This document shows positions 1,418-11,525 of a stretch of DNA of 11,525 bases, piece by piece (positions within the stretch are counted from its first letter, which is position 1; each line of letters begins with the position of its first letter). The stretch covers positions 1 through 11,525 of the forward strand of contig WJKZ01000072.1 in NCBI GenBank assembly GCA_014728785.1, written 5' to 3'. A program made the position numbers and the translations under genes. The DNA is from Candidatus Omnitrophota bacterium (GTDB lineage Bacteria > Omnitrophota > Gorgyraeia > Duberdicusellales > 4484-171). The notes under the pieces are model-generated. The model was not told the origin of the DNA, did not search any database, and worked only from the letters and a program-made list of their open reading frames with translations.

Positions 1418-2260
1418 ATGGTTATAGCCTACATCCTTCTTCTAGCTTCTTTTGTTATCCTTTCATATTACGGAGTAACCTTCCTTCTTAATAAATGGGA
1501 AGAAGCACAAAAAAGAAAAGCTGAGGATACTGCTTCTCAGTTTGAGGAGATGTTTATATTTCTCCACCGGCGGATGCTGGTAGTTCTTTACATTGTTGTT
1601 CCCCTTTTCGTTGCCGTTATAGGCTACATTCTTACCCGAAAGCTATGGATTATACCTATATTTCTTCTGATAGGGGCTTCTTTTCCCTTTTTGCTTGTCC
1701 GGTTTTTAGATAAAAGAAGGCGTCGGAAATTTGTAAATCAGCTGGTGGACGCGCTAATGATAATGAACAGTTGCCTTAAAGGCGGTCTTACTCTGGTTCA
1801 GTCTTTTGAAGTGCTGGCTGAGGAGATGACCCCTCCGATGAGCCAGGAGATATCTCTTCTGAGCCGGGAAATAAAGGTTGGTGTCACATTAGAGGAAGCT
1901 CTTATAAGGCTCGATAAGAGGATGCCTTCGGAGGAGATGACCCTTGTGTCCTCGGCTATATTAGTTGCAAGAGAAACAGGGGGTGATTTGACCAAAGTTT
2001 TTTCCCGTTTAGTTGAGACTATAAGGGATCGGCTTAAGCTGAAAGAGCTGGTTTCAACCTTAACTCTCCAGGCACGTCTTCAGGCTATAATAATATCCGC
2101 CCTGGGTCCTATATTTTTCTATGTAGTAAATAAGATAAATCCCGGGCACTTTGAGGTAATGTGGAAGGACGACGTGGGCAGGATGTTTTTGTTCATAGCC
2201 ATTGTGCTGCAGATTCTGGGTATAGTTTTAATCGTTATTTTTAGTAAGGTAGAGATATGA
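1418..2260 (+). CDS. tadB: Tad pilus inner-membrane platform protein TadB
   Basis: TadB and TadC form the inner-membrane platform of tight-adherence (Flp/type IVc) pili and couple the cytoplasmic ATPase to pilin assembly. The 280-residue length and plan fit TadB. Membrane segments lie near residues 1-20, 53-72 and 76-94, then a cytoplasmic type II secretion F (T2SSF) helical domain at about 106-220, then membrane segments at 221-238 and 255-276. Family hallmarks include QLVDALMIMNSCLKGGLTLVQSF, EIKVGVTLEEAL, the RETGGDL motif near 185-191 and TIRDRLKLK. The gene starts 30 bases after the pilin-like gene with an AGGTG about 17 bases before the ATG, and its TGA overlaps the tadC ATG. No truncation is seen. 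Confidence in the T2SSF assignment is high; TadB rather than TadC rests on gene order and the RETGGxL signature. Confidence 0.93.
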   Translation: MVIAYILLLASFVILSYYGVTFLLNKWEEAQKRKAEDTASQFEEMFIFLHRRMLVVLYIVVPLFVAVIGYILTRKLWIIPIFLLIGASFPFLLVRFLDKRRRRKFVNQLVDALMIMNSCLKGGLTLVQSFEVLAEEMTPPMSQEISLLSREIKVGVTLEEALIRLDKRMPSEEMTLVSSAILVARETGGDLTKVFSRLVETIRDRLKLKELVSTLTLQARLQAIIISALGPIFFYVVNKINPGHFEVMWKDDVGRMFLFIAIVLQILGIVLIVIFSKVEI

Positions 2261-3135
2261 TAATAGTCATTTATGTCCTTTTGATTATTGGTTTTGTATT
2301 GTTCTTCTTAGGCCTGATCCCTAAGCCCGCAGAGACTATTTCTGTTTTCGGCGATAAAATTAAAGAAGAGAAGGGTTCCTCGTCTCTGTTTTTATCTATT
2401 TTGCGTATATTTGCCCCTCTAAATAAAGGAATAATTAAATTTATGAGGCTCGAAGGGCCTTTGAATAATAAAATAAATCTGGTTAAATGGAGGGTCAAAC
2501 CGGAGGAGTTTCTGGCTTCTCAGGAGTTGCTTGCGGTTGTATTTCCTCTTATTCTTTTTCTTCTATTTGAAATAGAAGGCATGCCCTGGCTTGTGGGTGC
2601 TGCGATGCTCGGATTTTTTCTCCCTCTACATATTCTTAATTCTAAAGTAAAAAAACGCAAATATTCAATTGTAAGGGTTTTGCCTGAAACAGTGGATTTA
2701 TTAACCCTCTGTGTAGGGGCGGGTCTTGATTTTATGGCAGCTGTCCGCTGGGTTATAGATAAGGTGAGGGTCAACCCATTGATTGAGGAATTAGCGCTGG
2801 TATTGAAGGAGATAAATGTGGGAAAGCCCCGAATAGAGGCATTAAGAGATATGGCAAGAAGATTAGATATCCCCGATGTAACTTCTTTTGTAAGGACACT
2901 TGTGCAGGCAGACAGAATGGGCACCTCGGTTGAAGAAGCATTTAAAATACTTTCAGAAGATACCAGAATGAAGAGGTTTCACCGGGGGGAAAGGCAGGCC
3001 ATGAAAGCCCCTCTAAAGATGCTTATCCCTTTGATTTTTTGTATACTTCCGGTAATTTTAATAGTTGTTGCAGGGCCGGTCCTCATTAAATTTATCAGGG
3101 GAAGCTTATTTACCGGCTTAGGCGGCGGTCTCTGA
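2257..3135 (+). CDS. tadC: Tad pilus inner-membrane platform protein TadC
   Basis: This 292-residue protein is the partner platform protein of TadB. A membrane segment at 1-20 is followed by a Lys/Glu-rich cytoplasmic stretch, two membrane segments around 90-106 and 109-127, a T2SSF domain at about 142-250, and a C-terminal membrane segment at 254-276. Typical TadC signatures are visible: LPETVDLLTLCVGAGLDF (142-159), the EINVGKPRIEALRDMARR stretch, DVTSFVRTLVQADRMGTS (207-224) and the basic MKRFHRGERQAMKAPLKM before the last membrane helix. The ATG at 2257 overlaps the tadB stop as ATGA, which implies coupled translation and matched amounts of both proteins. The C-terminus ends in a Gly-rich tail (TGLGGGL). 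A 98-base gap separates it from the next pilin gene. Confidence 0.94.
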   Translation: MIIVIYVLLIIGFVLFFLGLIPKPAETISVFGDKIKEEKGSSSLFLSILRIFAPLNKGIIKFMRLEGPLNNKINLVKWRVKPEEFLASQELLAVVFPLILFLLFEIEGMPWLVGAAMLGFFLPLHILNSKVKKRKYSIVRVLPETVDLLTLCVGAGLDFMAAVRWVIDKVRVNPLIEELALVLKEINVGKPRIEALRDMARRLDIPDVTSFVRTLVQADRMGTSVEEAFKILSEDTRMKRFHRGERQAMKAPLKMLIPLIFCILPVILIVVAGPVLIKFIRGSLFTGLGGGL

Positions 3136-3233: not shown

Positions 3234-3464
3234 ATGTTAATAAAAATTAAATCCCAGAGCATTTTAGAGTATTTAATAATTTTAGCGGCTATCGTTGCGG
3301 TTATAGCAACTTTCGGGGCCACGACAGTGAGAAATGCGGTACAGGGGATGTTTTCAAGCGGTTCTCAGGCAATGAGTGCCAGCTCAGCCAATTTAGTTGA
3401 TACCGTAGGCGGGGAAGAGGAAGAAGAGCACGAAGTATACCTTCCTATTGTAATTGGAAGGTAA
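3234..3464 (+). CDS. Flp-like type IVb pilin with class III-type leader
   Basis: The 76-residue product has a short basic leader (MLIKIKS), then QSILEY at 8-13, a hydrophobic helix at about 14-30 (LIILAAIVAVIATFGAT), a Ser/Ala-rich stretch and an acidic end (GGEEEEEHEVYLPIVIGR). Cleavage after Ser7 would put Glu at +5 and Tyr at +6, the hallmark of Flp pilins, which are processed by a TadV-type prepilin peptidase and polymerised through the hydrophobic helix. The same pattern describes class III signal peptides. Ser instead of Gly at -1 is unusual, though the peptide at 1199 shares S|QS. A strong AGGAGG lies 7 bases before the ATG, the best ribosome site in the window, fitting a highly made pilin. 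It is the last gene of the Tad block. No intrinsic terminator follows; CCTTCC/GGAAGG arms at the gene end lack a T-run. Confidence 0.85.
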   Translation: MLIKIKSQSILEYLIILAAIVAVIATFGATTVRNAVQGMFSSGSQAMSASSANLVDTVGGEEEEEHEVYLPIVIGR

Positions 3465-4335: not shown

Positions 4336-4366
4336 AACGACTTTTTTCTCTTATCCTCCACCCATT

Positions 4367-4395
4367 AATATACGGCCAACCGGAGCTTTTGTCAA
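4367..4395 (-). promoter_or_regulatory. Sigma-70-type promoter of the Tyr-rich protein gene
   Basis: Read on the minus strand, a perfect -35 TTGACA (4390-4395) is followed after exactly 17 bases by TATATT (4367-4372), one mismatch from consensus. Transcription would start near 4360, giving a leader of roughly 25 bases before the ATG at 4335. This is the best promoter in the window. Confidence 0.8.
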
Positions 4396-4497
4396 CTTCC
4401 TTTGGATATTGCCTAAAGTGCACTGGAAGAAAGAGAAGATAGAGGCTGGGGTGAGGTCTTTTTTTAAGCCGGGGGGGGAGTTAAAATATAGACACAA

Positions 4498-4530
4498 AGC
4501 AGGGATTTTTAAAAATTGTCCATAAATAAG
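4498..4530 (+). repeat. Dispersed repeat AGCAGGG...TGTCCATAAA, copy 1
   Basis: AGCAGGG is followed after 12 AT-rich bases by TGTCCATAAATAAG. The same arrangement recurs at 6529-6560 in the same orientation with a 13-base spacer. Repeated TGTCCA-type motifs near the edges of a region are typical of transposase binding sites in some insertion-sequence families, but no transposase is present here. Confidence 0.5.
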
Positions 4531-4687
4531 CCATAGAGAATTGTAACTTTCCTGTAATAATCTATAAATAAAATACTACTTCACACGGTTTTATATAGGA
4601 AAATGTCCTTTTTAATCCTTATCCAAAGTGTGTTTTATCATACTTTTCCGGCAAAGAATTAGTTGGATTATGGTTGAAGGATGATTC

Positions 4688-4699
4688 AGCCGGCCGGCT
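4688..4699. repeat. 12-base perfect palindrome
   Basis: AGCCGGCCGGCT is a perfect, GC-rich palindrome in AT-rich surroundings. It is followed by GGGGG-TTTT-CCCGC and a short T-run, which could form a weak terminator-like structure on the plus strand. It could equally be a protein binding site. Confidence 0.4.
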
Positions 4700-5435
4700 T
4701 GGGGGTTTTCCCGCTTTTTAAACATAATACGGAATCTAAACTAATATTAGTAACATCTCAACCAAGCGAATAGAATATCAAGCCAGGCATATTAAAAGAG
4801 GCGAGTATGCACTCAAAGTATTTCTGCGGATAATATCTACCCTCTTTAGTTTATGTTTTAAAGAATAAAATTAGGTGTTTTAATGACCGGTTATTCAACT
4901 ATTAATTCTTAATTATATTTTTTATTCTTGAGGTAAATTAAGCTTATTGGCAGGTTGTTTTACAGATAAAGTTTTATATATATTATAAAGGTTAAGCATG
5001 ACTCCATAAGATCCACCCCTTCATTATTTTCATGGATTTGAAAAAGTTTTCTCATACCAGTTAAATATGCCGATACCCCTGTTTTCCACTCTTTTATACT
5101 AAAAAATTCAAAACCGTCCCTATATATAAAACCCGACATCAATATTTATATAAGATTTAATAGTCTTTAAAACTAAAAAAGAGCCCCCTTAGCCGGTGGC
5201 GGTTTACAATGCCGGGTGAGAACCCCCCCTTTTTTTAAGGTTAAATGAGCCGTAGATGATTGTCGAGGCAGGGCAAGAAGATTTAGTCTCTGACAAAACC
5301 AGAGGCTATAGACTTTAATTTATAGTGCAGCTTATTAATCCCTTGGGTTGATTTCAAGCATATATTAAATACTCTATTTAGGCACTTAGTTTTTTAGATA
5401 ATAGTATATCATTTGCATTAGAGAGGCACTCTTTA

Positions 5436-5470
5436 CGGACAATTCCAGGCAAGTGGCCTGCCCCTGTCCG
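5436..5470. repeat. Two-part symmetric hairpin
   Basis: CGGACA (5436-5441) pairs with TGTCCG (5465-5470), and CAGGC (5446-5450) pairs with GCCTG (5456-5460). The two helices are separated by a symmetric 4x4 internal loop and closed by a 5-base loop (AAGTG). All 11 pairs are Watson-Crick. No T-run follows, so it is not a terminator. Confidence 0.5.
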
Positions 5471-5710
5471 GCTTATGGTGGTTTTAGATGCCTATATATC
5501 CGGGTTTAGGCCAGGCTTAAATAATAGCATTACGCACTACCTTTTAAAAGCAGATGGTTCCTGTAATCTAAGCTTCCTCCCTTTGTAAGAAGGGGGCTTG
5601 AATAATTCCCGGAAAAAGAAACACCCTTTTTCTTAATAAGCGGCTATATAATAAAGATTTTTGAGCATATTATTTATATTATAGAAATTTTCTCCGGCCG
5701 GGAAACTTTT

Positions 5711-5733
5711 GTTTTTGTGGACATTTTTAAAGT
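5711..5733 (-). repeat. Dispersed TGTCCA repeat, inverted copy
   Basis: Read on the minus strand this is TTTAAAAATGTCCACAAAAA, closely matching TTTAAAAATTGTCCATAAAT at 4508-4527 but inverted. The pair brackets about 1.2 kb, a typical insertion-sequence length, although the interior has no transposase frame. Confidence 0.4.
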
Positions 5734-5903
5734 ATATTGATTAGGTAGCAGGCTGATGATACTTAATAACCTGCCGGAGGTTGGATAAAGGTGTAAAATT
5801 AAAAATCGCCCGGCTTTCAAAAGGATTAAAAGAGGCCTTTTAAGGAGACATTTTATAGTTGTATACGGCAGGGGATACTTAACTAAGCAGGCAGGTTTTA
5901 AAA

Positions 5904-5923
5904 CTTTCTTTTAGTAAAGAAAG
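5904..5923. repeat. 8-bp AT-rich hairpin
   Basis: CTTTCTTT and AAAGAAAG form a perfect 8-bp stem around a 4-base loop (TAGT), followed on the plus strand by a pyrimidine-rich stretch with two T5 runs (GTCTCTTTTTATCTTTTT). This could act as a weak intrinsic terminator for plus-strand transcripts, but the T-rich part is interrupted and no upstream gene needs it. Confidence 0.35.
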
Positions 5924-6050
5924 GTCTCTTTTTATCTTTTTGCCTTGATTTTTACTTTATATTATAATTACAGGTTTTAATTCATATTTATTCTTAGAAA
6001 CTGCTCTAAAAACGGTAAATTAACAAAAAAGCTAAAGTTCAGGGAAGTAA

Positions 6051-6159
6051 GAAATGAAGTAAGGGAACCCGAAAATAATCAGGGGAATCCGGTCAGTGCT
6101 CTAATCTTTTTGAATAGATTTCTCGAGAGCCGCCTTGAGACCGTACCTTCCTTCATTTC
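6051..6159. repeat. Long inverted repeat, possible structured RNA
   Basis: GAAATGAAGTAAGG (6051-6064) pairs with CCTTCCTTCATTTC (6146-6159) at 13 of 14 positions across about 80 bases. The inner segment contains a smaller hairpin, AATCT/AGATT, near 6103-6120. The left arm is preceded by a second GAAGTAAG copy 12 bases upstream. No promoter or terminator clearly delimits a transcript. Confidence 0.4.
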
Positions 6160-6361
6160 AGCCGAATTCTTATTACTTAAACAGTGGGGTTAAATCCTAA
6201 CCTGGTAAGTAGAAAAACGGGAGATTGAGGTAAAACGGACCAAATACAGAGTTTTAGGATAAGAGAATATAACACGGGCTTTTTTTATAGAATCACACAT
6301 ACTCCCACGTTTACTTTTAATAAAATATCCTAAAAAGGCAGAAAGCGGTATAAGTAAAAGT

Positions 6362-6459
6362 TAAACAGGAGACCTGTTTATATGACAAAACTCTGGAAAA
6401 TATGGAACCAAATGTATATCCGGAGAGGAAGAAGTTGTGTCGTAATATTTGTCCTTTAA
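6362..6459 (+). other. Hairpin enclosing a Shine-Dalgarno, with possible 25-codon ORF
   Basis: TAAACAGG and CCTGTTTA (6362-6380) form an 8-bp stem with a 3-base loop (AGA) that buries AGGAGA (6367-6372). Nine bases after this ribosome-site match, an ATG at 6382 opens 25 codons ending at a TAA (6457-6459). The peptide would be basic in the middle (IRRGRS) with a short hydrophobic end (CVVIFVL). It resembles no family I know and could easily be chance; the notable point is the overlap of stem and ribosome site. Confidence 0.2.
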
Positions 6460-6516
6460 AGAGACTTATTAATATAATTTTACAATTATCTCAAATATGT
6501 GGATTTAAAACATTTT

Positions 6517-6560
6517 ATGTCCATAAATAGCAGGGAAAATTTGTAAAATGTCCATAAAAG
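6517..6560 (+). repeat. Dispersed TGTCCATAAA repeat, tandem copies
   Basis: ATGTCCATAAA occurs at 6517-6527 and again at 6548-6558, 31 bases apart. The second copy is preceded by AGCAGGG (6529-6535), as at 4498. This places direct copies near both edges of the gene-free region, about 2 kb apart. Confidence 0.5.
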
Positions 6561-6762
6561 TAATTATCCTGATTAGTCCATCTTGCCCCTGTGGATTATC
6601 TACCTTCCCTTCATTCCAACCATTATTTTATATTAAAGTGGGTATAATTTTTTGTTTTCATAAGAAATTTTGTTGATTTTAGATAAATAGTGAAAAAAAT
6701 GCCTTAAATGTGAGAAGATAGTGAAAAGGTTTTCAAAAATAGGTGATTTTCCTCTAAAAATG

Positions 6763-6792
6763 TTGACTTTTTTAAAAGATATATGGTATATT
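6763..6792 (+). promoter_or_regulatory. Promoter of the riboswitch-giant gene transcript
   Basis: TTGACT (6763-6768) and TATATT (6787-6792) each differ from the sigma-70-type consensus at one position and are 18 bases apart. Transcription would start near 6799, a few bases before the riboswitch aptamer. The position fits a riboswitch leader well. Confidence 0.75.
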
Positions 6793-6820
6793 TTAAACGG
6801 ATTTGACACCGTAGGATTAG

Positions 6821-6945
6821 AGATCGAAAGGGCAAACCTGATTGGAAAATCAGGGGCGCAAAGCCACGGGTCCCAAAACACAATCAGTTCAATTAGCACA
6901 ACTTACGAAAGTAAATTGTGTTTCTCGGATAGCCGGGTTGCCGAA
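6821..6945 (+). promoter_or_regulatory. GEMM-I (cyclic di-GMP class I) riboswitch aptamer
   Basis: Class I cyclic di-GMP riboswitches are recognised by a fixed set of motifs, and all appear here in order: GGGCAAACC (6830-6838); a first stem CCTGATT/AATCAGG (6837-6843, 6848-6854) capped by a GNRA tetraloop (GGAA); GGCGCAAAGCCACGGG (6855-6870, consensus GACGCAAAGCC with one change); a second stem with 9 bp AAACACAAT/ATTGTGTTT (6876-6884, 6915-6923); and AGCCGGGTTGCCG (6931-6943). The second stem is expanded by about 30 bases holding a TTAC-GAAA-GTAA hairpin. The GGG before CAAACC is intact, which favours cyclic di-GMP over the cyclic AMP-GMP subclass, but I cannot map the exact deciding base. 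It sits between a good promoter and the giant gene. Confidence 0.93.
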
Positions 6946-6977
6946 ACTCAAGAAGGTTCGTTAACCCGGTTTTTTTT
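6933..6977 (+). terminator. Intrinsic terminator overlapping the riboswitch 3' strand
   Basis: CCGGGTTG (6933-6940) pairs with TAACCCGG (6962-6969), including one G-T wobble. After a mismatch the stem continues with CGAA/TTCG (6942-6945, 6957-6960) around an 11-base loop, and eight Ts follow (6970-6977). The ascending arm lies inside the conserved AGCCGGGTTGCC of the aptamer, so the aptamer and terminator cannot form fully at the same time. Ligand binding should hold the 3' strand in the aptamer and prevent termination, predicting that the signal turns the downstream gene ON. Confidence 0.85.
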
Positions 6978-7002
6978 ATGCAATTAACAAAAAGAAACCA
7001 AA

Positions 7003-7038
7003 AACGGGCAGACTTGGGGAAAGGGGGAATTTCCCGTT
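7003..7038 (+). promoter_or_regulatory. Leader hairpin before the giant gene
   Basis: AACGGG (7003-7008) pairs with CCCGTT (7033-7038) around a 24-base purine-rich loop containing AAGGGGGAA. The loop carries the only Shine-Dalgarno-like run in the leader, but it lies about 30 bases before the ATG at 7058; nearer the start only a weak AGAG (7049-7052 region) is seen. It may affect translation, or it may be incidental. Confidence 0.3.
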
Positions 7039-7057
7039 CTTTATATTTAGAGTCTTT

Positions 7058-10000
7058 ATGAGAGATAATACCGATACCCCACAAGCCGGCATTTTTAATG
7101 AAACCCACACACCGAGGTTTAAACCCTGGATGAGGGTTATTGCTTGTTTTGTGTTGTTCTGTTTCGTTTATCAGGACATAGCCTCGGCTATGATGCCCGA
7201 TTATGTTACCAGCCTTAATACAATGCTTAAAGGTCCTACCCCCATGCAGCAGGTTAAGCCGAATATTCTTACATCTTTATTTTCTTTAGGAAAAGTTTAT
7301 GCGAGACTTGACGACGGTGGCGGAGGCGGCGGTGGTAGCTATGGTTACTACTACTCGGGCAGCAGCAGTTCTTCCTCCAGTAGTTCCTCGTCTTCTTCCT
7401 CTTCTTCTTATTATGGGGATTATGGCTATTCAAACCCCGGGGCGTATTCCGGCAGCCAATACCGTAATCCGAGCTACTATAGTTCGCCCAGCTCTCAGGG
7501 GTCCTCTCATTACGGAGATTACGGCTACTCTAACCCCGGAGCTTTTTCCGGAAACCAGTATCGTAATCAGAGTTATTATACTCCATCTAGGCCTAGCTCT
7601 TCTTCTTCAAATAGTCCAACTTATCCCAGTGGAAACTACTGGGTAACGGTAAATCCCGACGGAAGACGAGTTTATCAATCAATGGATACCGGTTCAAGCA
7701 GAGGTAGCACTGTTCCTCATAGTGGCTGGTACGGTTCTCCCAGAATAGACCCGGGACCGGATGTTGACCCCGAACCCGCAACCAGAGTAACCTCTTCCCC
7801 TACCAGAGGAGAAGCTTTTACCCCCTATACCGGTTCTACTGGTCTTTCGGGAGATATGCCTTATCCCACTATTCCTACCGACAGGGTTACATTAGAGATG
7901 TTTGACGGCGGGCCTACCAGAGACCATATAATGCCGGTACCTATACATAATGGTGATAGTGATTTTCCTGTCTTCCTTGTTCCTACCGGCGGAACTCTTG
8001 AAGGGGGAGATGGTTTTGAGCCATATCAGATAGGGACTGCTGCCGACGGCAGCGCTATCTGGGTGGGTGTAGGAGAACAAACCAGAGGCGTATGGAAAGA
8101 TATACCCGGAACCCCTTATGGATATAACGCCTATGGCTCCGAAGCAGTTAATACGCTTCTTGATAGGCCTGATACCAGTGATTTATCTGCTCTTGCTCCT
8201 TATTTTGAAACACCCCAGGCAGGAAGCACTTTTAGCTATAATCCTCATTCGAGCAGCGGCACAGATATAAGTGTAGGAATGACTTACCAAGGTAGCTATA
8301 CAGAAGTTACCTCTGTAAACGGCCAGCAGGTTACCGGCATGATGGGGGGTCATATTACCTACGGGGGTAATAATGTATTTAGTCCTTATGATGGTTATAC
8401 CTATACTTATGACCCCGCCACTACTAATTACACATCTAACTATACCCCCAGTGTCATAACTTTCGGAACTCTTGTTGATCCTCTGTGGAATAATCCGGTT
8501 GAGATGGCACAGATGTTTTCAGGCGAGGGAGATTTGTTGGGCGTGGCTTTCTCTAACCCCTTAGGCTCAGAAATTGCCGCTGCCACTTTTAGTTTCACCG
8601 AGCAGAATGTTCATCCTGTCCAGGCAGGTTTTGAAATAGATGTTTCTGCCCAGCAAGGCAGCCTTACCTCCAATAATCTTCTTGGGAATACTGCTTCCTC
8701 ATCAGGTCTTTCTCACCTTACAGGAGTCCTGGGCATAGCTCCTATTCAGGATGAAAACGGTTGGGTTAGCCCTGCACAGGCATTTGGGGAGTTTGTTAAA
8801 GTATCAGACCCGGCCCAGAATTATAGATATAATTTACCTGATCCTACCTCAGACCCACAAAGGTATAATCTTTTCCTCGGCCAGGATACAGCTACCATCG
8901 CAGCAAGCAGACAGATTGGTTCCCAGAATAGCTGGATGGTATCACCGCAGGCATTTGGTGATTTGTCGGGCCAGCTTGTATTCGGAAGAATAGTAGAAGG
9001 AGCAGGCGCAACAAGGCCCCAGGAGTGGCAGTTCAATGCAACCGGTTTAGGAACTCACTTTACTAATATAGGTAATAATTTAGATACCACCCCTCTTAAC
9101 CCTTATATAGGTATAAGAACAGGGGACACTTTAGCTAATTTGCCTGTACCCGGAACTCCCGATAGCGGTTTGTTTTTAAACACCTCTTTAAATACTGTAG
9201 AGTGGAGAGATTATACTTTCGATACTCCCCGGGATGTCAGCTGGAATATAGGTAATTTTGTAGATAATTATAATAGTTTTGTAAATGACATTAACGCGCA
9301 AATAACAGCCCCTCTTGACCCCTTGGGTAGTAATCAATCAACCGCTCTTCCCACTATAAATGCAAGTGATTATGCTTATTTTCCTTTATTTGAACCCCAG
9401 ACAGTCAGCGGAGTGATGACAGACAATGAAAATTATTTCAGCAATATGGCACCGGCCAATACAGTTGCAGTTAATCCTTCCGGTTATACTTATGATATTT
9501 TCGGTATGGATTTATACAGTACTTTTGAAGTAAGCAGAGTGGGAGATGCTTTACGCCTGGATAGCCATCCTATCGAGGGAATAGGCGGAGGTTTGTGGCA
9601 GATAGAAACACTTTCCACAGCTTACAGCCCTGATTTTACCGACCACGTAACTCATAACATAACTAATGGTTTTGTCTGGACCCCTCAGGTTTCTAATATT
9701 CCGGGATTAGACTTAATTTCCGGAAACATCAGTTCAGACCCCGATTTTGATTTCGGTGCATTCAGCGATATGGCAATACCTTTTGCCAATGGATATGGGC
9801 TGAATTTAGCCGGAGCTTTTATAAATCAGGGAGAGATTTTAGGCCCCGGTTTAGCGGACAATTATTCTATAGGCAATTGGACGAGTGCACCCGAATTACC
9901 TCAGGTTTTAATAAGCGGTATAGAAGGAATTAATATTACAGATCAGGAACCATTCAATGACGGGTTAGCCACTCTTACTACAACTTTTACCGATATGTCG

Positions 10001-11525
10001 GTATTTTCGGAGATAAATTTTGTAGCCCCGACTGTAGTAGAGAGTCGTGATTTCTTTACCAATCTTCACGGTAATATGACCCAGCAGCTGCAATTCAATC
10101 CAGGTACAGGTTTAACCCCTGATGAGATGTTCCGATTTACCAGTGAGCGTGTGGATATAGGCGGACTTGATTTTGCCGAAGTTTTTGAAGACGCAATAAG
10201 CGGTAATACAATAGACCTTTCCTTTGACTTGGCAAGAGACGGTTTCGGCGCTGAGTTTACAAATGAAGGTATAAAGATTTTAACCCCGGCTGATACAGTG
10301 ATGTTTTCTCACTCTCATCTTTTCGGGGCAGAAACCGACCCTAACAGTATGCAGCCAACTGCGAATTTAGGAGAAGGTATTGTACTTGACTGGATTTCTC
10401 CTATTGCCAGAGATTCCGATATTAATATACATCAGGGTGTTGCCGGTATACATATAATGCCCACTATAGGTAACGACGGCAGCCTGAACCACGCTTTTGA
10501 TTTCTCACCCGTTTATTCTTCCGGGGCAGTATGGAGGCAGACCCCTGCTTTTGATATATCTCAAGGGTATGTCGATAAGGGAACTGGCGTTCATTTTGAT
10601 GATAACACTTGGGTAGGACATATGCCGGGTTATAGTTATTTTAACCCATCTATGCTTACTCCGGTCACAAGAGAAGCTCAGTCAGGTATGGTCAGGATTA
10701 CCGATACCGGCTTCGTAGGCGATGCGGCAATAGTAAGACAATACGAACAGCCCATCAGTCTTCCTTTAAGTGGTCCCGGCTTTGATAGACCCTTTACAAG
10801 GGATGCTACCTTAACGGGTGAATTTTTACATCTTGTTACCGACGCGGGTTTACTTGAAGCTACCCATACCTTGAACGACCCTTTTATCAGGGATTTAACT
10901 CTTAATACCAATTTTATGCCGGCTCATAATGTAGTTATAGATTCGGGGCCGCAGTTACAATTAAACCAGGTTGATATAGGAAGAGTAGCAATATATGATG
11001 CAGAAACCGAAGCTTTCTTAAGGACCGACTTAACCTATCTGGTGTCAGGTCCTACTCAGGGGATAGTTAATTTTACTCAGCCTGTAGAGGAAGGCAGCAG
11101 TGACCCTCTTAACGAGAGACGGATTTTAATGAACAGCGGCTGGAATACTTTCGGTTATGATACAGTTTCAGGAGGAAAAGCATTTTTTACTGTGGGAGAT
11201 GAACAGAGGCTTCAGTTTGAGTTGCAGCAGTTTGATTTTAACTATGGATTTACAGCCCGCGGCACCTGGCAGGATATAGGGGCAAGGACCTTTATACCCC
11301 GGGGTATGACTCAGGACGGAGTAAATTTAGTTAATCCCCGTCTTGATTCATATGATTCTATGCCGGTATTTAATGTATGGGGCAGAGATTTTCGTGCCAG
11401 CACCATAGAAGGGGCCGAAGGCCCGGGCCTTGTCTACTTCAGGCCGAGAAATTCCCACAGACTTTATAGCCCCACCCCTTTTACTACCTCGGTTTTACCT
11501 TTCGGGGGAGCAAATGATTGGGCAA
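7058..11525 (+). CDS. Giant exported low-complexity surface protein, 3' partial
   Basis: The frame stays open for at least 1489 codons to the window end, so the full protein is longer. Residues 1-24 are a polar, basic-ended leader (TPRFKPW). A hydrophobic segment at about 27-38 ends in ASA (42-44), a likely signal peptidase I site. Residues 87-93 are seven Gly and 102-117 sixteen Ser, and Tyr is frequent. A 23-residue unit beginning YGDYGYSNPGA occurs twice (119-141, 152-174). The rest is rich in Thr, Ser, Asn, Asp, Gly and Pro with alternating hydrophobics and few Lys or Cys, suggesting extended beta-sheet structure. A W-x-SP-QAFG motif recurs at 569 and 626. No catalytic domain is recognised. 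Very large exported proteins with such leaders are known from Omnitrophota-like genomes; adhesion or envelope roles are inference. Expression should be set by the upstream riboswitch. The Ile/Thr codon style matches neighbouring genes. Confidence 0.9.
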   Translation, partial: MRDNTDTPQAGIFNETHTPRFKPWMRVIACFVLFCFVYQDIASAMMPDYVTSLNTMLKGPTPMQQVKPNILTSLFSLGKVYARLDDGGGGGGGSYGYYYSGSSSSSSSSSSSSSSSSYYGDYGYSNPGAYSGSQYRNPSYYSSPSSQGSSHYGDYGYSNPGAFSGNQYRNQSYYTPSRPSSSSSNSPTYPSGNYWVTVNPDGRRVYQSMDTGSSRGSTVPHSGWYGSPRIDPGPDVDPEPATRVTSSPTRGEAFTPYTGSTGLSGDMPYPTIPTDRVTLEMFDGGPTRDHIMPVPIHNGDSDFPVFLVPTGGTLEGGDGFEPYQIGTAADGSAIWVGVGEQTRGVWKDIPGTPYGYNAYGSEAVNTLLDRPDTSDLSALAPYFETPQAGSTFSYNPHSSSGTDISVGMTYQGSYTEVTSVNGQQVTGMMGGHITYGGNNVFSPYDGYTYTYDPATTNYTSNYTPSVITFGTLVDPLWNNPVEMAQMFSGEGDLLGVAFSNPLGSEIAAATFSFTEQNVHPVQAGFEIDVSAQQGSLTSNNLLGNTASSSGLSHLTGVLGIAPIQDENGWVSPAQAFGEFVKVSDPAQNYRYNLPDPTSDPQRYNLFLGQDTATIAASRQIGSQNSWMVSPQAFGDLSGQLVFGRIVEGAGATRPQEWQFNATGLGTHFTNIGNNLDTTPLNPYIGIRTGDTLANLPVPGTPDSGLFLNTSLNTVEWRDYTFDTPRDVSWNIGNFVDNYNSFVNDINAQITAPLDPLGSNQSTALPTINASDYAYFPLFEPQTVSGVMTDNENYFSNMAPANTVAVNPSGYTYDIFGMDLYSTFEVSRVGDALRLDSHPIEGIGGGLWQIETLSTAYSPDFTDHVTHNITNGFVWTPQVSNIPGLDLISGNISSDPDFDFGAFSDMAIPFANGYGLNLAGAFINQGEILGPGLADNYSIGNWTSAPELPQVLISGIEGINITDQEPFNDGLATLTTTFTDMSVFSEINFVAPTVVESRDFFTNLHGNMTQQLQFNPGTGLTPDEMFRFTSERVDIGGLDFAEVFEDAISGNTIDLSFDLARDGFGAEFTNEGIKILTPADTVMFSHSHLFGAETDPNSMQPTANLGEGIVLDWISPIARDSDINIHQGVAGIHIMPTIGNDGSLNHAFDFSPVYSSGAVWRQTPAFDISQGYVDKGTGVHFDDNTWVGHMPGYSYFNPSMLTPVTREAQSGMVRITDTGFVGDAAIVRQYEQPISLPLSGPGFDRPFTRDATLTGEFLHLVTDAGLLEATHTLNDPFIRDLTLNTNFMPAHNVVIDSGPQLQLNQVDIGRVAIYDAETEAFLRTDLTYLVSGPTQGIVNFTQPVEEGSSDPLNERRILMNSGWNTFGYDTVSGGKAFFTVGDEQRLQFELQQFDFNYGFTARGTWQDIGARTFIPRGMTQDGVNLVNPRLDSYDSMPVFNVWGRDFRASTIEGAEGPGLVYFRPRNSHRLYSPTPFTTSVLPFGGANDWA
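7412..7579 (+). repeat. Two-copy 33-codon-period repeat in the giant gene
   Basis: Codons 119-141 and 152-174 encode near-identical segments: YGDYGYSNPGA, then Y or F, SG, S or N, QYRN, P or Q, SYY. The DNA copies differ mostly at third codon positions, so the duplication is old and the protein sequence has been kept. Confidence 0.85.

Follow-up and report, generated by a model that had tools for sequence, protein, structure and literature searches.

Vc1 and Vc2 from Vibrio cholerae, which belong to the c-di-GMP-I (GEMM-I) family RF01051, are among the closest described systems to the riboswitch considered here. Vc1 controls gbpA. In the related cGAMP riboswitch selectivity rests on A14, the nucleotide immediately 5′ of P2, with A41 in J2/3 and C75 in J1/3, and the cGAMP and c-di-GMP switches are told apart by an A to G change at the selectivity position (PMC6274999). 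Further facts for the comparison were taken from PMC4744006 and PMC6456294.

Little is understood of what the giant genes of Omnitrophota do. The phylum was without isolates at the time of a 2023 survey, which describes a 3-fold rise in attached cells for peptides from one giant protein (PMC10066038). The main text of that survey describes no regulation of these genes and contains 0 occurrences of either "riboswitch" or "di-GMP". No report that combines Omnitrophota with a riboswitch or c-di-GMP was found in a literature search that had preprints and most subscription papers outside its reach.

Here we describe a leader from Candidatus Omnitrophota bacterium (assembly GCA_014728785.1, contig WJKZ01000072.1). 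The whole stretch of 11,525 nucleotides that was analyzed, hereafter the window, is one entire contig from a genome assembled into 286 contigs, with a completeness of 68.6%. The phylum is Omnitrophota, in keeping with the uncultured phylum that a preliminary description had thought probable. The leader is very probably a transcriptional ON switch in which the binding of c-di-GMP blocks a terminator, so that a gene for a very large, probably exported protein beside Tad genes is transcribed.

Aptamer and Predicted Ligand

Positions 6821–6945 of the forward strand were found to match Rfam model RF01051 with 57.1 bits (E 2.8e-9; gathering cut-off 35), and the match spans the entire model from position 1 to position 87. 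This covariance search had been called for in the preliminary description, and its result agrees with the complete GEMM-I motif set reported there. The E-value and the conserved placement of the aptamer rule out a chance motif. The helix borders were taken from the RF01051 alignment and set against PMC6274999, which places P2 at 6832–6859 and P3 at 6862–6939; 18 of the 18 pairs that the model names in P2 and P3 are standard. By these borders G6831, A6860, and C6941 occupy the positions of A14, A41, and C75 of the cGAMP switch, and the same three bases are the equivalents of the pocket bases G20, A47, and C92 of Vc2. When the aptamer stretch was searched alone, the model listed was RF03167 (c-di-GMP-I-GGC), with 53.9 bits, below its cut-off of 59. 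The window riboswitch itself is an ordinary member of the c-di-GMP-I family.

The base at the selectivity position is G6831, and c-di-GMP is therefore the predicted ligand. GGDEF domains were found at 3 places above the Pfam cut-off in the same genome, and 2 readable frames carry GGEEF. A second c-di-GMP-I aptamer in this genome (locus L003, 5952–6039; 69.6 bits) precedes an exported-looking frame, at least 257 codons long and still open at the contig end.

Terminator and Mutual Exclusion

An intrinsic terminator was located at 6931–6977 on the forward strand, from its fold and from covariation in nine leaders. Its arms are 6931–6942 and 6960–6971, followed by eight T at 6970–6977, which bears out the earlier suggestion of a terminator that overlaps the aptamer and ends in eight Ts. 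The segment AGCCGGGTTGCC at 6931–6942 serves twice, as the 3′ end of the aptamer and as the 5′ arm of the terminator. In the RF01051 alignment, 6931–6939 belongs to the 3′ strand of P3 and 6940–6941 to the junction with the ligand-pairing C. Since the terminator takes both from the aptamer, the two structures cannot coexist, and an expression platform that excludes the aptamer is present by fold, by covariation, and by RNAfold. Folding of 6926–6985 gave −20.1 kcal/mol with a z of −3.0. A consensus terminator scan of 6400–7100, which allows loops of 3–8 only, did not list the shared hairpin. The shared terminator being unlisted and the promoter scan weak, the relatives were used for comparison.

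The 3′ region of the switch was aligned for nine leaders: those of the window, the second aptamer of genome G010, G015, G029 (two leaders), G058, G016, G006, and G001. Across the 12 pairs of the shared terminator stem, 99.1% of the 108 cells are paired; 6 pairs are invariant and 3 have changed on both sides in a compensatory manner. The covariation score was reached by 1 of 500 shuffles, and only 17–57% of cells were paired when the stem was slid by 1–3 columns; these controls are a guide and not a probability, since the leaders were chosen for their likeness and themselves supplied the pairing. The sole unpaired cell belongs to the window: of its 12 terminator pairs, the one that involves the ligand-contacting C is broken, a point against the proposed mechanism. 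With RNAfold, the terminator fold was favored by 3–5 kcal/mol before base 6970 and by 13–15 kcal/mol with that base present, energies that ignore the ligand and tertiary contacts. These margins would leave a short co-transcriptional interval for the ligand.

Overlapping terminators were also counted for 147 aptamers of the class among the matches listed. Stems of at least 10 pairs were found for 40 of these, versus a mean of 20.8 and a maximum of 27 in a swap control, and stems of 7 pairs for 56, versus a mean of 48.5 and a maximum of 54. Because the excess is about 2-fold at 10 pairs or more and barely present at 7, the overlapping terminator is claimed for the window's set only; as a trait of class aptamers in general it was dropped, the counts being too near the swap control.

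In the mechanism that we propose, transcription would start a short distance 5′ of the aptamer. Without c-di-GMP, 6931–6942 would pair with 6960–6971 to form the terminator, and transcription would stop at the T run. The interval open to the ligand would run from the completion of the aptamer (6945) until the second arm of the terminator emerges (~6970). Bound c-di-GMP would hold P3 and the pocket in place, no terminator would form, and the gene next to the Tad pilus genes, for a very large and probably exported protein, would be transcribed. We infer the ON direction, which is supported by the covariation of the aptamer-breaking terminator and by the folding energies; stem pairing with compensatory changes in nine leaders is as expected of a ligand-ON switch.

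Promoter and Second Leader Element

A sigma-70-like promoter, TTGACT-18-TATATT with TG, was assigned to 6763–6792 on the forward strand by a consensus scan and by its conservation in the relatives. The scan alone was not above chance (4 promoter-like sites versus 3.1 expected). An alignment of seven leaders shows no variation in TGAC or TATAT, and at least 10 of 12 promoter matches are found in the 75 nt upstream of 27.9% of the 147 aptamers among the matches listed, versus 2.3% for shuffles. Five of the nine leaders reach 10 of 12 matches; those of G010, G016, G001, and G029:C47 fall below, and in G016 and G001 TTGACA-TATAT sequences are nonetheless visible in the alignment. The promoter named in the preliminary description is thus upheld at 6763–6792 by conservation, at chance level as it is on its own.

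Between the terminator and the start codon lies a conserved purine-rich element, TTGGGGAAAGGGGGAA, at 7014–7029 on the forward strand, which recurs at this place. Searched across 1.45 Mb of loci, a strict pattern related to the element was matched at 9 distinct sites, some of them overlapping; a leader of this type follows 8 of the 9 after 23–46 nt, one of these being from a distant family (L118). Within its own genome TTGGGGAAAGGGGGAA has one exact match, that at 7014–7029, and one two-mismatch match elsewhere. Under a looser pattern, a match lies upstream of the leader at 4 of 30 loci, and the G015 leader is without the element. The AAGGGGG motif could presumably pair with the usual anti-Shine-Dalgarno sequence; its distance from the ATG is large for an ordinary ribosome-binding site. 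No description of this second element was found in the literature searched. In the leader of genome G096 (L193, ~1370–1430) the 3′ part of the aptamer, the terminator, and the purine-rich element are kept and no aptamer was recognized, which suggests a decayed or repurposed switch.

Putatively Regulated Gene and Tad Neighborhood

The gene behind the switch starts with an ATG at 7058 and occupies 7058–11524 of the forward strand; the frame, of at least 1489 codons as had been reported, is open to the contig end. It is the 5′ part of a gene for a large and probably exported protein, for which a role at the cell surface is presumed. The first ~50 residues form the conserved leader. A search for phage origin of the leader found no similar DNA in a phage collection, and that origin was rejected. 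The window protein has no match in Pfam or NCBIfam, and structure prediction of residues 620–1239 without an alignment was uninformative (mean pLDDT 29.5). Pfam searches on pieces of the G006 relative identified a thioredoxin domain and HEAT repeats, which do not settle the function.

The Tad neighborhood proposed earlier is supported by two adjacent T2SSF proteins at 1418–3135, one TadB-like (1418–2260; E 1e-20) and one TadC-like (2257–3135; E 2.8e-15). Two Flp-pilin-like small proteins at 1199–1387 and 3234–3464 were assigned by eye and have no Pfam match; all four genes are on the forward strand. No CpaF-type ATPase was found within the window, and ATPase-like frames were seen by eye in G006. 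The TadC proteins of G006, G010, G015, G016, and G029 are 66–70% identical to that of the window and lie within 10 kb of the switch. No TadC-like gene was seen by eye in the 20 kb of G001 examined, and the contig of G058 is too short to judge. In G006, G010, G016, and G029 the switch is separated from the Tad genes by an exported-looking gene (657–976 aa). The corresponding 2.4 kb of the window, from 4336 to 6760 (~34% GC), holds no frame longer than 88 aa, and no remnant of that gene was found in the window by tblastn with ten proteins, these four included, at E 0.01.

The TadC search returned 31 loci in named genomes, 28 of which bear the name Omnitrophota, Omnitrophica, or Kappaea (placed in Omnitrophota by NCBI). 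Six of the 14 closest loci have at least 4.5 kb after TadC, and an aptamer is found there in 5 of the 6; these five are again G006, G010, G015, G016, and G029 and not additional cases. Among the more distant loci scanned, 6 of 9 have an aptamer. In L234 and L235, TadC is followed by an aptamer and then by frames of at least 2808 and 1919 codons, respectively, with a similar leader. The L230 aptamer precedes an exported-looking frame of 1315 codons, and those of L233 and L236 precede pilin-like frames. In L237 an aptamer (13149–13240) likewise follows TadC and has no clear frame after it; group II intron matches lie farther along the locus (18578–18855).

Recurrence among the Relatives

Of the 37 genomes in the family, 9 contain relatives of the window protein, with its own genome counted. 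In the other eight genomes, a c-di-GMP-I aptamer lies directly upstream of the related leader at 7 of 8 loci; a scan of the G031 locus found none upstream of the related gene. The eight aptamers in these loci are all listed under RF03167, four of them above the cut-off of 59. Two tandem c-di-GMP-I aptamers precede the G010 relative (L050, 7619–7881).

A profile search with the leader found 67 places, spread over 61 of the 293 genomes of the class; the longest frame among them has 45,379 codons. At 13 of these 67 places an aptamer lies on the same strand no more than 400 nt upstream, versus ~0.2 expected if 1000 transcription units per genome are assumed, as we did; weak hits to the leader profile may be spurious, and relatives from one family are not independent. 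The 13 places fall in six families (five in f1 and four in f4), with frames of up to 14,792 codons (G216). No aptamer was found within 400 nt upstream at the remaining 54 places, that of the 45,379-codon frame included. The riboswitch would therefore be a recurrent but not a general control of giant-type genes.

Among the matches listed, c-di-GMP-I aptamers occur in 51 of 58 genomes, that of the window included, with up to 12 in each; 0 of 14 control genomes have one. Frames of at least 1000 aa follow 22 of 143 aptamers among the matches listed, or 23 of 147 with four added, as raw counts uncorrected for background frame length. Behind other aptamers lie pilins, small proteins that look exported, transposase-like frames, or nothing clear, and one precedes a TPS-type exoprotein (Pfam TPS, E 2.8e-21). 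G015 has a further aptamer 675 nt before a pilin-like frame, and in G029 and G034 aptamers lie ~600 nt before such frames. In G119, the estimated position of an aptamer (C12:146946–147025) is close to the 3′ end of a frame of 11,305 codons and not upstream of it.

Alternative Interpretations

Three other readings of the locus were weighed. It is very unlikely that the aptamer senses 3′,3′-cGAMP as a GEMM-Ib type rather than c-di-GMP. cGAMP ON switches with an identical overlap logic do exist (pilM; PMC9262584), and a simple pattern finds A at the selectivity position in 14 of the 147 relatives' aptamers among the matches listed (e.g., L007 and L147), with G in 110 and 23 unassigned, so that cGAMP-type switches may exist in Omnitrophota. 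The window, however, carries G6831, and by our own reading of the motif the 2 readable GGDEF frames of its genome carry GGEEF, with an aspartate in the segment that in Hypr enzymes contains a serine. An OFF switch, or a leader that no longer responds to a ligand, is most improbable. Class I switches operate in both directions, with Cd1 as OFF and pilM as ON (PMC9262584), and the G096 leader retains the 3′ part of the aptamer and the terminator without a recognizable 5′ part. Yet the shared P3 strand bars the coexistence of aptamer and terminator, both of which are kept in nine leaders, and a separate antiterminator is unnecessary. The preferred reading remains a c-di-GMP ON switch.

As for the size of the gene, the frame reaches at least 4.47 kb at the contig end, and the criterion for giant open reading frames is >20 kb. 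We consider it unlikely, though less so than the two readings above, that the gene is not giant and that the contig ends within a protein of normal size. In favor of this, no more than 1489 codons are visible in the window, and the one complete relative, in G001, stops at 452 codons. Against this, the relatives in G006 and G015 have at least 15,506 codons (at least 46.5 kb) and 3,169 codons, both running off their contigs, and frames of at least 2000 codons were found at 31 of the 67 leader places in the class. The relatives in G010, G016, G029, G058, and G031 reach a contig end after 104–932 codons. The word "giant" in the preliminary description is supported by the largest relatives, and for the window the length is a minimum. 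The 452-codon relative indicates that size varies and that the target need not be giant; for the window gene a giant protein is the likelier reading.

Comparison with Known Systems

As far as the searches show, the repeated use of a riboswitch before giant Omnitrophota genes is new within the literature searched. The relatives keep the arrangement of switch before gene, which suggests a way in which some of these genes are switched on. A c-di-GMP ON switch that is conserved ahead of several giant genes would provide a concrete and testable signal for their expression, and the switch RNA can be studied without culturing the organism. Control by c-di-GMP would also agree with the published proposal of an attached lifestyle for giant proteins. 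A broader proposal, which we offer tentatively and judge somewhat more apt to fail than to hold, is that in several families of Omnitrophota c-di-GMP ON riboswitches induce giant exported proteins, Tad pili, and other secreted proteins upon attachment to surfaces or cells, and that a second leader element, TTGGGGWAAGGGGGAA, acts once termination has been decided, perhaps by affecting the loading of ribosomes.

The window aptamer resembles Vc1 and Vc2 in its fold, conserved core, and pocket bases, and control of a surface or secreted protein gene would be common to Vc1 and the window. The Vibrio switches differ in their phylum and in their targets, that of the window being an Omnitrophota gene of very large size. 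The terminator of the window overlaps P3, whereas none is apparent behind the Vc1 aptamer in the accounts used here. RF03167 is the best model for the eight relatives' aptamers and for the aptamer stretch of the window searched alone, although the window and four of the eight score below 59. The pilM ON switch of Geobacter metallireducens has the same logic as the window, a terminator arm that takes the 3′ strand of the aptamer in mutual exclusion (PMC9262584), but it senses cGAMP and has A at the selectivity position, where the window has G (PMC6274999). The expression of the large surface proteins FrhA and CraA of V. cholerae is raised by c-di-GMP, as is proposed here, through protein regulators and LapD/LapG, unlike the riboswitch of the window (PMC6890996). 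The giant open reading frames described for Omnitrophota (>20 kb; PMC10066038) share with the locus reported here the phylum, the Tad genes, and, through its largest relatives, giant frames with few known domains.
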